Positions 2,687-7,996 of a stretch of 64,000 bases of DNA are shown in pieces; within the stretch, counting starts at the first letter, position 1; each line of letters opens with the position of its first letter. A program made the translations under genes and the position numbers. Under the pieces are notes generated by a model, which was not told where the DNA came from, searched no databases, and was given only the letters and a program-made list of their open reading frames with translations. Source of the stretch: Acidimicrobiia bacterium (GTDB lineage: Bacteria; Actinomycetota; Acidimicrobiia; Acidimicrobiales; Poriferisodalaceae); assembly GCA_012960315.1 (NCBI GenBank), contig DUBN01000079.1:1-64000 (forward strand), written 5' to 3'.

Positions 2687-2959
2687 TTATCTCGCGTGCC
2701 CTGGGTCAGATTGGCGAAGTTCTGCCACTAGGTGCCCGTCGTTGTGTCTATGGTCGCGGTCGGCCATTGCGAGGTTGATTGCGTCTCCGACGAGAACCGC
2801 GGTTCGGTCAACTACCCACATTTGCTCACCCTCGCTACGGCGACCGTAGGTTTCTCGCGCATATGCGAGCGCTAGCTCGTCGTCTGGCGCATCAAGTGAT
2901 CCGGCATGGCTAAATGGTTCTTTCCCAGCTTTCTTGAGAAATACTTCGTAAGTGTTCAT
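2687..2959 (-). CDS. paaB: PaaB-like subunit of phenylacetyl-CoA epoxidase
   Basis: This 90-residue protein opens with TYEVFLKK and continues into a conserved ALAYARETYGRR stretch and a MWVVDR segment, the pattern of PaaB. PaaB is a small non-catalytic subunit that bridges PaaAC heterodimers in the multicomponent epoxidase. Its start overlaps the stop of the tetR gene upstream by 4 bases (ATGA), and paaC follows 5 bases later. This implies translational coupling within one transcript. Confidence 0.85.
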   Translation of the reverse strand: MNTYEVFLKKAGKEPFSHAGSLDAPDDELALAYARETYGRRSEGEQMWVVDRTAVLVGDAINLAMADRDHRHNDGHLVAELRQSDPGHAR

Positions 2960-3549
2960 GCGATGTTTGCCTTCGGGTTTGGATTCAGGCCGAGCGTCAA
3001 CAGAAAGTGGACTTCCAAAGCAAGAGAGTCGACATTCAGCGCGCCGTCAGCGTTGAACCACCGTTGGGTGCCATTCAGTAGTGAAAGGACCAGATTCGCT
3101 GCCAAATGAACGTCGAGATCCGATCGAAATTCGCCGGTGGCACAGCCGTTGCTCAGAACGTCGCGAAAGACTTGTTGGTAGCGGTCGAACATAGTGACCG
3201 CCTTATGTCGCTCTAGTTCCGGAAGAAATCGAGTTTCGTTGAGGAAAGTTCGAGCTTGATGCGGGTCTTCAACAAGGATTTGGAGGTGGCCGTGAATCAG
3301 TCGAGACAGTCGTTCGTTAGCCGTTCCCGACATCGTTGCCACTTCGTCAGCCAGTGCTTGGAAGCGCGAAGATGCTTCGCGCACGACGTCAACTAACAGT
3401 TCATCTTTGGAGACGACATGGCTGTACAACGATGAACCCATCAGGCCCAACTTCTTGGCTAAGTCACGCATTGAGGTTCCGTGGAACCCCTGTTCGGCAA
3501 ACATAATTCGGGCCGCGGCCACCACGTCAGTTCGATTCTTTCGGCTCAT
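2956..3549 (-). CDS. TetR-family regulator embedded in the paa operon (PaaR-like)
   Basis: The 197-residue protein has an N-terminal TetR helix-turn-helix at about residues 8-55 (ARIMFAEQGFHGTSMRDLAKKLG, given here only as its location, with SLYSHVVSKDELL closing the domain) and a C-terminal helical ligand domain. It lies between paaD and paaB with 4-base overlaps on both sides, so it is made from the operon it probably controls. The perfect palindrome at 4954-4973, in the promoter of the same operon, is the obvious operator. Acyl-CoA-responsive TetR proteins of this type usually act as repressors released by a CoA thioester. The ligand here is inferred, probably an aryl- or acyl-CoA. Confidence 0.85.
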   Translation of the reverse strand: MSRKNRTDVVAAARIMFAEQGFHGTSMRDLAKKLGLMGSSLYSHVVSKDELLVDVVREASSRFQALADEVATMSGTANERLSRLIHGHLQILVEDPHQARTFLNETRFLPELERHKAVTMFDRYQQVFRDVLSNGCATGEFRSDLDVHLAANLVLSLLNGTQRWFNADGALNVDSLALEVHFLLTLGLNPNPKANIA

Positions 3550-4025
3550 CGCTCCCCCATTTGGCGGGACCTAACTATTTCGACGGGATTGCGACAATCC
3601 GGGCACCATTCGACGGATCGGCAAGCTGTGCCACCAACATCGCTGCGAGGTTCTAGTGCTGTGCGCCCACAAAGAGGGCACTTTGTCGGCCCCTCCCGAG
3701 GCCGAATGGCGACTGTGTATTCGTCTGCGAGTATTTGGCGCGCGTCTTCGCTAATGCGATCCGGAGTCCATACCGGAGACATGCAAAAACGAACGGTCAC
3801 GTCATATCCCGATGCTCGAGCAGCAGCCACTACATCTTTTTCGATGACATCTAAAGCTGGGCATCCGAGGATGGTGGGGACTAGGTCGACGCGGATGGAC
3901 GCCGAATCGGCGACCACGTCTTCGAGGATGCCTAATTGTTGGATATTGAGATCTGGATACTCCGGATCCGTGACGGACGAAACGGCGACTCGAACGGCAT
4001 CAATGGCCGTATCGGTGATCCTCAC
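3546..4025 (-). CDS. paaD: PaaD-like protein (DUF59/MIP18 domain with C-terminal Cys motifs)
   Basis: The 159-residue protein has an N-terminal MIP18/DUF59 domain (AVSSVTDPEYPDLNI near residue 15, PTILGCPALD near residue 50) and a C-terminal metal-binding segment with CPLCG near residue 117 and CPDC near residue 142. This layout is typical of PaaD, which is thought to help mature iron or iron-sulfur centres of the phenylacetyl-CoA epoxidase system. It overlaps paaA and the tetR gene by 4 bases each. The length matches the family. Confidence 0.88.
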   Translation of the reverse strand: MRITDTAIDAVRVAVSSVTDPEYPDLNIQQLGILEDVVADSASIRVDLVPTILGCPALDVIEKDVVAAARASGYDVTVRFCMSPVWTPDRISEDARQILADEYTVAIRPREGPTKCPLCGRTALEPRSDVGGTACRSVEWCPDCRNPVEIVRSRQMGER

Positions 4026-4924
4026 GCGTCAGCCTTCGCGGCGGCGTCGAGTGCTACGCGAACCCATTCAGCGTCGTACCAGGCTCGTCTAGCGTCCGAA
4101 ATTCTTCGGGAGCTATCTGGACCACCATTTCTCATTATTTCTTTTAGCGGCCGCCAGTCGATCTCGCTGATTTTCCATTTGCCGTCGTCGCTGTCTTGTC
4201 GAAGCCCGGGGTCAGGAATAGTGAACCCTCCACCAAGCAACTGGGGCACAAATTTTTGTATGTATCGATCTCGCAGGTCCTCATTCCGTTCCGACTTGAT
4301 GCGCCACCGAAGTAACTCATCATCAGGTCGAGAATCGGGGCCGAATAGTTGGATAGAGGGCAACCACCAGCGATCGATCGACTCTTGCATCATCTGGTGT
4401 TGAACATCGCTACCACGGGCCATCAAAAGCATCATCTCTTCACCATTGCGCATGTGAAATCCTTCTTCGGCAATCACTCTTCGCAATATTCGTTTATAGG
4501 GACCGTAGGAACAGTTTTTGAAAACTGCTTGTTGGCTCGCTAACGCAGCCGCGTCGACGAGATATGCGACGGCTATTTGATCCGTCCAAGTATGAACTCG
4601 GTAGTGAAAAACATTGTGGAAATGGGTGCGTCCTTCCAGCAGGTCCGTGATCATTTCTTCGCGTGTCTTCACCCCAAGATCAGCAGCGACCATGTAGAGC
4701 AGGTGAGCGTGACCAATTTCGTCTTGAGTTTTTGCCAGCGCGGTCATTTTGCGGTGCAGCCCAGGAGCCTTTGGAATCCAGTCCCTTTCAGTAAGCCCGC
4801 CCATGTACTCACTGTTCGCGTGCATCTCGATAAAACGAAAGACGGCGCTTCGGTAGGCCTCTGGAATGTCATCGTTGGGCTCGACCATGCCGCCTTCATC
4901 AAGGAACTCCTCGAATTCGTCCAT
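4022..4924 (-). CDS. paaA: PaaA-like catalytic subunit of phenylacetyl-CoA epoxidase
   Basis: This is the di-iron oxygenase subunit that in characterised systems epoxidises phenylacetyl-CoA. The 300-residue protein begins MDEFEEFLDEGG. Candidate iron ligands are seen in the HANSEY helix, in AKTQDEIGH (ExxH), in an Asp in LVDAAALASQQ, and in AEEGFH (ExxH). The frame stays open upstream to 5020, but an upstream start would place the TATAAT box and the palindromic operator inside the gene. The ATG at 4924 is therefore preferred; it sits about 18 bases downstream of the predicted transcription start. It is the first gene of the operon. No PaaE reductase or PaaK ligase is nearby, so the electron donor must be encoded elsewhere. 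Confidence 0.88.
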   Translation of the reverse strand: MDEFEEFLDEGGMVEPNDDIPEAYRSAVFRFIEMHANSEYMGGLTERDWIPKAPGLHRKMTALAKTQDEIGHAHLLYMVAADLGVKTREEMITDLLEGRTHFHNVFHYRVHTWTDQIAVAYLVDAAALASQQAVFKNCSYGPYKRILRRVIAEEGFHMRNGEEMMLLMARGSDVQHQMMQESIDRWWLPSIQLFGPDSRPDDELLRWRIKSERNEDLRDRYIQKFVPQLLGGGFTIPDPGLRQDSDDGKWKISEIDWRPLKEIMRNGGPDSSRRISDARRAWYDAEWVRVALDAAAKADA

Positions 4925-4948
4925 GTTTCGCCAGTTACGCACAACTCC

Positions 4949-4954
4949 ATTATA
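4949..4954 (-). promoter_or_regulatory. -10 box of the paa operon promoter
   Basis: On the minus strand this reads TATAAT, a perfect -10 hexamer, placed 24 bases before the paaA ATG. The region that would hold the -35 box (4972-4978) has no good TTGACA match, so the promoter may depend mainly on the -10 box. It overlaps the edge of the palindrome by one base. Confidence 0.6.
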
Positions 4955-4973
4955 CAAACGAACGTTCGTTTGT
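4954..4973. promoter_or_regulatory. Perfect 20-bp palindrome, probable TetR operator
   Basis: The sequence is an exact inverted repeat of the half-site ACAAACGAAC with no spacer. It fills the space between the -10 box and the -35 position of the paaA promoter, where a bound dimer would block RNA polymerase. Half-sites built on AACG/CGTT are common for TetR repressors of acyl-CoA catabolism, and the only TetR gene in the window is in the controlled operon. I saw no second copy in the window. Confidence 0.8.
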
Positions 4974-4974
4974 G

Positions 4975-5865
4975 TTATTCGTGTTTTTTGGGATCGAGGT
5001 AACCGTTTGCGATTGCCCATTGCTTCACGAGTGACCCGTAGGTGGTGGTGCTGTCTTTGTAGCCTCGGACATCTTTAGGCAATTTCGACAGCGATTGGAC
5101 CAGTTCACCGAGAGCTGTGGGGTGTTCAGCAACCGACCTTATTTGTTGTCGGAGAATTCGGATGGTGAAGACGATGGCCTCAGTTTGTGGAAGGCGCCGA
5201 AGCGTCTGGTATTCCACTCTTAGCCAGACCCGTTCAGCAACATTTGTCAAAGTAATATCTTGCCGCAGAGGTTCATGTCGTTGATGGGGTGCTAATCGCA
5301 AGCCTGGGTCGTCAGTCAAGGTGCGGTTTGCTCTCCATACCGGCCGATCTACACGAAGGCGGTCGAAGAAGGTTCCCATCAGTTGGGAGAGATCCGTGTC
5401 GTATCTAGGTACCGGTTCGTGAATGGAATCAAGAGTGGTGCCGAACTTCGAAGGAACGTCCCATTGTGTTGGGATCGCTACAGCGCATGCCGTCATGACC
5501 CAGCCTTCCGATCGTCGTTGGAGCAGACAAATATCTTCTTGCACCAGTCGGCGAGTCGATTCGATTACAGGGACGCCTGGTTGTTGGTCCAGTTCAATGC
5601 TGCTCAGTCCAGACACGCTTCTGAGGTGTTCAACTACCTCGGCCGCTAGTTCTTGGCAGGCCGGTACCGCGCTTGGCTCGCAGTAAATGATTTCATCGCG
5701 GCAATTGTCAATAAGTGCGCCAATTTCGTTGAGGTCGGCGACGCGGTCCTCGTCGACTATTAGCCACTGGTCAAGATTTAGAGGTCTGACCCCCATGCGC
5801 CATTTGAACGGTTCAGGATCGACCGCAACAAGGTCCGCTGCTTTCAAACGCGGCGTTTTCAACAT
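4975..5865 (-). CDS. DUF3445 / haem-dependent oxidative N-demethylase-like protein
   Basis: The 296-residue protein carries signatures I associate with DUF3445 (HODM alpha-subunit-like): WRMGVRPLNLDQWL near residue 22, VQEDICLL and GWVMTACAVAIPTQWD near residues 108-135, RLRVDRPVWRANRTL near residue 170, and RVEYQTLRRLP near residue 215. Characterised relatives are haem oxygenases that remove N-methyl groups, such as dimethylamine monooxygenase. The function here is inferred from family only. It overlaps the phosphorylase gene upstream by 7 bases, so it belongs to the mtaD-phosphorylase unit. Its stop lies 2 bases before the paa operator palindrome. Confidence 0.75.
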   Translation of the reverse strand: MLKTPRLKAADLVAVDPEPFKWRMGVRPLNLDQWLIVDEDRVADLNEIGALIDNCRDEIIYCEPSAVPACQELAAEVVEHLRSVSGLSSIELDQQPGVPVIESTRRLVQEDICLLQRRSEGWVMTACAVAIPTQWDVPSKFGTTLDSIHEPVPRYDTDLSQLMGTFFDRLRVDRPVWRANRTLTDDPGLRLAPHQRHEPLRQDITLTNVAERVWLRVEYQTLRRLPQTEAIVFTIRILRQQIRSVAEHPTALGELVQSLSKLPKDVRGYKDSTTTYGSLVKQWAIANGYLDPKKHE

Positions 5866-6599
5866 TCACCAGATGACTGCAGCTGAACAGAGCGACTGAG
5901 AAGGCGGAAAACTGGTTCTTTTGTCGCTTCTAGAGTGGCCCAAATCGCTTCCTCTTCTACGGCTTCATCGCTCATACCAGCTGCTGGGTTGGACACAACG
6001 GCGACTGACGCGTAGGGAAGATTTGCCTCGCGGGCTAGCGCCACCTCCGGGTAGCCAGTCATTCCGACTACATGTGCGCCGAGTTTTTTATACATCTGAA
6101 TCTCCGATGGGCTCTCAAATCTTGGGCCGTTGGTGCACACATAGGTAGCTTTTTCGGCGATATCAATACCCTCGATCTCAGCGGCCCGGAGTAGAACGGA
6201 TCGAAGTTCGGGGTGATACACCGACGTCATATCCGTATGTGTGACTTCGCCTGGTTGGTCAAAAAAGGTGCAATCGCGTCCTTGGGTGAACTCAATGAAA
6301 TCGTCAACCAAAAGAAGTGATCCTGATCCGCGTTCGGGAACCATTGATCCGACGACGTTGACCGCAAAAACCGAGTCGACTCCTAAGTCGACGAGAGCGC
6401 GGATATTGGCCCGATAGTTGATGGCATTAGGGGGTATCGAATGATCACCGCCATGGCGGGCGACGAAAGCGATGGGGACGTTGTGCCACAGTCCTGTAGA
6501 AACCGATGCATTTCCGTAGTCAGTAACGAACGTCTCGTCTCTTCGTTGAAGTAACCCTGGAAGTTCGTAGTAACCACTACCTGCAATGATCCCGATCAT
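5859..6599 (-). CDS. S-methyl-5'-thioinosine / purine nucleoside phosphorylase (MtnP family)
   Basis: The 246-residue protein starts with IGIIAGSGYY, has the phosphate-site RHGG near residue 49, the NVVGSM segment near residue 80, and GMTGYPEVALARE near residue 177, the hallmarks of the MTA phosphorylase family. The base-binding loop reads SNPAAG. An Asn there, rather than the Asp pair of true MTA phosphorylases, suggests a 6-oxopurine substrate such as methylthioinosine. The next gene upstream encodes an MTA deaminase, which would make methylthioinosine from methylthioadenosine. Together they fit the two-step deaminate-then-phosphorolyse salvage route known from Pseudomonas. Confidence 0.82.
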   Translation of the reverse strand: MIGIIAGSGYYELPGLLQRRDETFVTDYGNASVSTGLWHNVPIAFVARHGGDHSIPPNAINYRANIRALVDLGVDSVFAVNVVGSMVPERGSGSLLLVDDFIEFTQGRDCTFFDQPGEVTHTDMTSVYHPELRSVLLRAAEIEGIDIAEKATYVCTNGPRFESPSEIQMYKKLGAHVVGMTGYPEVALAREANLPYASVAVVSNPAAGMSDEAVEEEAIWATLEATKEPVFRLLSRSVQLQSSGEC

Positions 6600-6664
6600 G
6601 ACGTCATCGTGACACGCGACTCACAGCCCATGTGTCAATTGGGGTCTGGTCTATCGTCTCGTCG

Positions 6665-7996
6665 TTAAGTTCCGGACTTTTCCGCTAGACGCACACCGCG
6701 AGATTGAACTTCAGCCATAGCTTGTTTTACATCAACTTTGAGGCATTGCCGGTCAGCTACAACTTGTTCCCCTCCCACCCAGACGTCGGTGACATGTCGT
6801 CCGCTACCCGACCATGCCAGGTGCGCGATTAGCTCATCGCTGCAGGTGACGGGAACAAAGGTCGGATCATCTAAGTTAATGCGAATAAAATCGGCTCTCT
6901 GACCTCTTTCGAGGCTCCCTACGTCGAAATTGCCAATAGCTCGAGAACCTTCAACAGTGGCCATGCGAAGCGCATCTTGTGGACGCATCGCTGAAGCATC
7001 CAGCGTTGAAACTCTTGCCAGTAATGGTGCGAATTTGATTTCTTGCCACAGGTCCAGATCATCGTTTGAGGCCGGCCCGTCGGTTGCCAATCCGACTTCG
7101 ATTCCTCGCGAACGCATTGCAGGGACCCGAGCGACACCGGATGCAAGCTTCATGTTGCTGACGGGGCAGTGAGCTACGGAGACTTCGTGCTGGGCGTACG
7201 TTTCGATATCGGCGTCATCGAGCCAAACGCTGTGCGCGGCCAGAACTCGTCCATCAAGAACGCCGTGTTCAGCTAGTAACTGAACCGTTGAGCGGCCCTC
7301 GTGCGCGGATTCAAGTTCGATTCCTTCGTCCTGAGTTTCGCAGACGTGAATGTGCAGAAGCGCATCTAGATCGCGGGCTGCTGCAGCTATTTCTCCGCAG
7401 AGTTCGAGCGGCAGGTCATACGCCGAATGCGGCCCAAAGCCAACAGTGACGCGCTGTTCCGGATCGTGGTAGTGCTGGTGGAAGGCAACGATCGCGGCGA
7501 TCCGGCTTTCGGTCGAACCAAAATCATCAGCGTGGAGCGCCGAGATGATGCCGGGTGTCATAACGAGCCGGATCCCTGCATCGGTAGAGGCTTCGACTAC
7601 CGACTCTTCAAAGAGGTACATCTCACAGGTACTTGTCACGCCTGCGCGTAACATCTCCGACGCGCCGAGACGCATCCCCCAAAGCACATCTTCAGGAGTC
7701 ATTTCACCTTCCCGCGGCCACATCACTTGCGTTAACCAGTCCAGGAGAGGGAGCCCATCACCAGCGCCACGCACCAGTGTCATAGGGGTGTGGGCATGGC
7801 TATTAACGAGGCCCGGCATGATTAGGCCACCAAGGTGATGAACTGGGCCATCACACGGCGGTGCTTCCGATTGGGGTCCGATGAATGAAATCCGACCCTG
7901 AGTTACGTCAATTGCAGCGTTCGAGATAACAGAAAAGTCTTGATCGCAGGTGACCGCGATGTCAGCAAGATAGCGATTGGTAGTCACGTGCAACAT
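6665..7996 (-). CDS. mtaD: 5-methylthioadenosine/S-adenosylhomocysteine deaminase-like amidohydrolase
   Basis: The 443-residue metal-dependent amidohydrolase has the HxH metal motif in NSHAHTPM near residue 66, further His residues in GPHSAYD and HVCETQDEG, and the deaminase signature TDGPASNDDLDLW near residue 304. This combination fits MTA/SAH deaminases, although 8-oxoguanine and s-triazine hydrolases are related alternatives. It is the first gene of a minus-strand unit with the phosphorylase (65-base gap) and the DUF3445 protein. It diverges from the livH-like gene across 79 bases. Confidence 0.8.
   Translation of the reverse strand: MLHVTTNRYLADIAVTCDQDFSVISNAAIDVTQGRISFIGPQSEAPPCDGPVHHLGGLIMPGLVNSHAHTPMTLVRGAGDGLPLLDWLTQVMWPREGEMTPEDVLWGMRLGASEMLRAGVTSTCEMYLFEESVVEASTDAGIRLVMTPGIISALHADDFGSTESRIAAIVAFHQHYHDPEQRVTVGFGPHSAYDLPLELCGEIAAAARDLDALLHIHVCETQDEGIELESAHEGRSTVQLLAEHGVLDGRVLAAHSVWLDDADIETYAQHEVSVAHCPVSNMKLASGVARVPAMRSRGIEVGLATDGPASNDDLDLWQEIKFAPLLARVSTLDASAMRPQDALRMATVEGSRAIGNFDVGSLERGQRADFIRINLDDPTFVPVTCSDELIAHLAWSGSGRHVTDVWVGGEQVVADRQCLKVDVKQAMAEVQSRGVRLAEKSGT

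Follow-up and report, generated by a model that had tools for sequence, protein, structure and literature searches.

TetR-type repressors of paa operons, named PaaR, have been described in Burkholderia cenocepacia and Corynebacterium glutamicum (PMC9493321) and in Thermus thermophilus HB8 (TTHA0973), where, as at the locus reported here, the repressor is associated with sites in paa promoters. The inducer of the Thermus protein is phenylacetyl-CoA (PMC9493321, PMC6651687). By selection in vitro, T. thermophilus PaaR prefers AACnAACGTTnGTT, with nanomolar affinity (PMC6651687), and the consensus CNAACGNNCGTTNG was derived from its promoters (Sakamoto et al. 2011, cited by PMC9493321). The Burkholderia paaR gene lies downstream of paaABCDE and its operator is palindromic (PMC9493321). 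A report that does not mention Acidimicrobiia describes PaaR as dominant among the regulators of actinomycete PAA clusters (PMC13186573), and no paper linking Acidimicrobiia to phenylacetate and paaA turned up in the literature collection searched. The PaaR-type switch is already known as a kind; the instance in Acidimicrobiia appears to be new.

The locus lies in a 64-kb stretch of DNA that was analyzed as a whole (referred to as the window in the rest of the text). At positions 4954-4973, ahead of paaA and immediately behind the stop codon of a HODM-like gene, the window carries a perfect 20-bp inverted repeat, ACAAACGAACGTTCGTTTGT, whose half-sites ACAAACGAAC and GTTCGTTTGT abut without a spacer. 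A TATAAT hexamer occupies 4954-4949 on the minus strand and shares one base with the palindrome, and 24 nt separate its last base from an ATG at 4924-4922. The perfect repeat adjoining TATAAT and the 24-base distance claimed in the preliminary description are thus both confirmed. The window has no other perfect palindrome whose arms reach 7 bp (14 bp or more in total). Windows resampled under a Markov-1 model are expected to hold 4.9, 1.25, 0.3 and 0.13 perfect palindromes with arms of at least 7, 8, 9 and 10 bp, respectively. At about 0.13 expected per window, the 20-bp palindrome is by length alone only mildly unusual and constitutes modest evidence; its significance comes from its location in a gap of about 50 nt, its fit to a known consensus and its conservation.

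The central 14 bp (4957-4970) are identical to the T. thermophilus PaaR consensus, with 0 mismatches to AACnAACGTTnGTT at the specified positions and the same centre, while CNAACGNNCGTTNG is matched twice, at offsets −2 and +2. The chance of a AACnAACGTTnGTT match in the gap is about 2×10−6, and a genome-wide scan returned 4957-4970 as the only exact match in 2.82 Mb. Thermus PaaR controls two paa operons, whereas here the genome holds one exact site, in front of an operon of the order A-D-R-B-C. Other operators account poorly for the identity of the site (4-5 mismatches for the PfmR, SbtR and Burkholderia PaaR consensuses). The Burkholderia PaaR operator ACCGACCGGTCGGTT has 4 mismatches to it, as has, at best, the promoter-derived PfmR operator TACCGACCGNTNGGTN, and a broader, selected PfmR consensus can be fitted with 2 mismatches, and then only off-centre. 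As judged from sequence, the palindrome at 4954-4973 is almost certainly a PaaR-type operator, the predicted docking site of the operon's own repressor. A one-mismatch site located between divergent acyl-CoA dehydrogenase-like genes (G000:C46:15471-15484, L015) is not conserved in relatives; it probably arose by chance and was rejected as a second target in the genome. Since matches with up to two mismatches are as frequent as those of a reversed-pattern control (132 versus 134), no further regulon member is claimed.

Pfam and NCBIfam analyses gave the minus-strand gene order paaA, paaD, tetR, paaB, paaC. The operon comprises a paaA-like gene of a divergent PaaA clade (4022-4942), a paaD-like gene whose start overlaps the paaA stop in a GTGA (3546-4025), a gene for a TetR-family repressor with ATGA overlaps on both sides (2956-3549), a paaB-like gene (2687-2959) and, as the last gene, a paaC-like one (1947-2681). 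These overlaps join paaA, paaD, tetR and paaB, and tetR is therefore very probably transcribed together with the rest of the operon. PaaA passes the curated cut-off of TIGR02156 (320 bits versus 280), whereas PaaC (132.1/133.35) and PaaD (100.8/108.15) fall just below theirs and PaaB (57.5/85.45) well below. In the PaaA tree, the window clade and the canonical clade are separated by a very long branch, with about 40% identity to canonical PaaA; PaaR and its site occur in both. Upstream of paaA and on the same strand, 4975-7996 holds MTA/adenosine deaminase-like (MTAD), MTA phosphorylase (MTAP) and HODM-like genes, the last of which (PF11927; 4975-5865, minus strand) has its stop codon next to the operator and is counted here as a neighbour of the operon. 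Where the upstream reading reached far enough, tetR+ relatives have the same MTAD-MTAP-HODM series before paaA, on the same strand and lacking a coding-strand terminator, and in some tetR-less relatives MTAP and MTAD still adjoin paaA.

The product of tetR has an N-terminal helix-turn-helix domain (PF00440, 1.1×10−11) and a match to PF17932 (9.7×10−25). The nearest folds to its AlphaFold model (mean pLDDT 82) are PfmR and then KstR2, with FadR and AibR also among the best, all of them regulators of acyl-CoA or fatty-acid/sterol metabolism, some solved with acyl-CoA. Among solved structures the closest is that of T. thermophilus PfmR (TTHB023, encoded on pTT27; PDB 3VPR), at 33% identity and a TM-score of 0.82-0.85; PfmR regulates acyl-CoA/fatty-acid genes. 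FadR of Bacillus, KstR2 and AibR share the fold, the C-terminal domain (TetR_C_24, TetR_C_4) and the ligand class, but differ in their operators and pathways and are only 19-25% identical. Because these neighbours include acyl-CoA-bound regulators of the FadR/AibR type, the modelled fold suggests that the ligand of TetR is likely an acyl-CoA. The recognition helix departs from that of PfmR (GLMGSSLYSHV versus GLSKAALYHHF), and GSSLYSHV is almost invariant among TetR orthologs. A class-wide profile search recovered these orthologs at E values of 10−44 or better, followed by a gap down to 10−34, and extended them to three more families. In most of those families tetR follows paaABCDE and sites are also present (in the one cluster scanned, PaaE scored 425.8 bits against a cut-off of 420.8); in G245, tetR precedes paaG, paaH, a paaJ-like thiolase gene and paaN. 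Since orthologs sit beside paaE or paaG-H-J-N together with sites, and tetR is itself third in paaA-D-R-B-C, linked to paa catabolic genes as expected of a paaR, we identify the protein as the predicted PaaR of Acidimicrobiia, placed beside Thermus TTHA0973 by its operator and gene context. None of its relatives on Deinococcus plasmids is near paa genes.

Conservation of the site was followed within the family and across the class. Among 39 genomes of the family, the core ACGAACGTTCGT occurs exactly once in each genome with a paaA-tetR operon, always upstream of paaA, and in 0 of the 11 genomes of genus g7, which have paaA in a cluster devoid of this tetR; in three genomes without the paaA-tetR operon (G003, G005 and G006) the 12-mer core is present elsewhere. 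An alignment of 15 upstream regions shows 97% conservation in the 14 operator columns, compared to 65% for 65 columns upstream of them, and the outer bases of the palindrome vary. The full 20 bp are confined to some members of the genus; what is conserved is a core of 12-14 bp. Class-wide, a site with at most one mismatch was found in 60 of the 62 paaA upstream regions of tetR+ genomes (40 exact) and in 1 of the 27 of tetR− genomes, counts that do not represent independent events because tetR+ and tetR− labels are clustered on the PaaA tree. Palindromes with permuted letters matched on average 0.15, and at most 9, of the 62 tetR+ regions. The palindrome is therefore present upstream of orthologous paaA genes, a point on which the preliminary description had staked its reading, and the site follows tetR across family and class, which supports its proposal that the in-operon TetR binds there. 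In the tetR+ genome G281, paaA lacks the site, which instead adjoins its tetR and a paaH-like gene; the paaA site of G318 has two mismatches; and G295 has a site without tetR, its paaA lying near a contig end with the downstream genes cut off. G084 (L206) carries paaABCDE with no tetR after it and a site with two mismatches, perhaps an operator decaying after loss of the repressor.

The dependence on tetR also bears on whether LexA, or another resident regulator, binds the palindrome instead of the operon's TetR. The actinobacterial SOS consensus is CGAACRNRYGTTYG, and the palindrome holds two overlapping registers that are each one mismatch away from it; moreover, the lexA-like gene of the genome has a similar upstream site, CGAACAAACGTTCG. 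However, it is the PaaR register on which conservation centres; in genus g6 (CGAACGTTCGTGTG) the SOS register is still more disrupted, the site follows the presence of tetR, and there is no obvious rationale for SOS control of the paaA operon. Compared with the LexA box CGAAC-N4-GTTCG, the half-sites here lack a spacer and the best register, at 1 mismatch, is unconserved. We therefore rejected the LexA box and regard binding by LexA or another such regulator as highly improbable. Just upstream of the lexA-like gene, GCGAACAAACGTTCG (G000:C17:25794, L009) is SOS box-like and a near neighbour of the PaaR operator.

The −10 box (4949-4954, minus strand) is conserved as TATAMT in the 15 aligned relatives and is preceded, across an 18-nt spacer, by a weak −35 element, ATAACA, at 4973-4978. 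In these relatives TATAMT ends, at fixed spacing, exactly 6 nt before a conserved start, an in-frame ATG or GTG located 18 nt upstream of the ATG at 4924 that had been proposed earlier as the start of paaA. Most share the sequence M/V-R-x-W from that codon, several have ATT, ATC, TTG or GTG at the position of ATG 4924 while keeping the upstream start, and the tetR− g7 genomes have an ATG at the conserved upstream start, behind a Shine-Dalgarno-like AGGGAGG. On the strength of this alignment, the conserved paaA start is GTG 4942, 6 nt after TATAAT; the view of the preliminary description, that the operator fixes the start at ATG 4924, is not supported. A −10 box 6 nt before the start codon would place +1 on that codon, suggesting that the paaA mRNA is probably leaderless. 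In the locus L037 (G038), a longer palindrome of 24 bp (TTACCAACGAACGTTCGTTGGTAA) stands upstream of paaA, its distance from the start increased by 14-15 nt; the leaderless spacing fails in genus g10.

Given its position right behind the HODM stop codon, the inverted repeat could work at the RNA level, either as a hairpin or as the intrinsic terminator that ends MTAD-MTAP-HODM transcription, and a terminator-like pattern was indeed scored on the plus strand. However, the T-run of that pattern belongs to the antisense strand, and in the coding-strand sequence ATAATGGAG comes after a stem of 40% GC. Relatives do not preserve the outer stem pairs, and clusters with no HODM gene found upstream conserve the repeat just as well. 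A role in RNA, which was rejected on these grounds, is very unlikely. Another reading retains the TetR-operator pair and adds a roadblock to transcription coming from MTAD-MTAP-HODM, making those genes and paa one regulated unit. HODM and paaA are on the same strand, with about 32 nt from the HODM stop to the GTG and no terminator on the coding strand between them, and the gene order MTAD-MTAP-HODM-paaA is conserved over several genera. The conservation of a −10 box right at the operator nevertheless favours a promoter of paaA's own, and, as the genome contains just one exact operator, there is none before MTAD; we consider the added roadblock rather unlikely.

Our preferred reading, in which we have high confidence, is that the palindrome serves as operator for the co-transcribed third gene of the operon, tetR (PaaR), in a negatively autoregulated circuit with release by acyl-CoA and a probable leaderless start. 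Binding, repression, ligand and transcription start are proposed from features read in the sequence, namely the site, its conservation and dependence on tetR, the gene order and overlaps, the conserved start and the −10 spacing. If +1 is at the GTG, a TetR dimer at about −32 to −13 would fill the spacer between −35 and −10 and would keep RNA polymerase off the paaA promoter. Release from the operator would follow when TetR binds an acyl-CoA, for which phenylacetyl-CoA, or a related aryl/acyl-CoA on which the PaaABCD oxygenase acts, is a plausible candidate, and the transcript would probably begin at GTG 4942, without a leader. Since tetR is very probably co-transcribed, the circuit would be one of negative autoregulation, so that the autoregulation suggested by the preliminary description is very probably correct.

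The same description called the operon paa-like and its ligands aryl-CoA, labels that the gene content leaves unproven. Unlike in the Thermus system, no PaaK, PaaZ or PaaE was found: the best PaaK score in the genome itself, which is 96.6% complete, was 26 bits, PaaE had no match there, and PaaZ had none over cut-off anywhere in the family, whose genomes are drafts. PaaK-like matches do not exceed about 36 bits in the genomes of g1, g6, g8, g9 and g10, and 10 of the 11 g7 genomes score at least 610. PaaN_2 was likewise not found, in a search run without a positive control. Although PaaA passes its cut-off, the lineage therefore shows no complete paa pathway (PaaK, PaaZ/PaaN and PaaE), which makes phenylacetyl-CoA doubtful as inducer and phenylacetate catabolism uncertain as the pathway; a different ligase or substrate is possible. 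One tentative view, which we hold to be possible but somewhat doubtful, is that a stripped-down, deeply divergent PaaABCD oxygenase, without its usual ligase, reductase or ring-opening enzyme and located beside MTA/adenosine-salvage and HODM-like genes, has retained a conserved PaaR-operator pair, and that both the substrate and the sensed ligand are an acyl-CoA other than phenylacetyl-CoA.

The combination of a conserved operator and a reduced gene set is of some interest. As the 14-bp operator is the site selected in vitro by Thermus PaaR, the specificity appears common to two phyla and, judging from the sites, to two deep PaaA clades. For Acidimicrobiia, a lineage known mostly from metagenome-assembled genomes, the locus offers a concrete regulatory circuit open to testing, along with a DNA probe ready for use. 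The operator also marks the regulon, and may thus serve as a tool to find the genes that accompany the reduced PaaABCD oxygenase and to guess its substrate.
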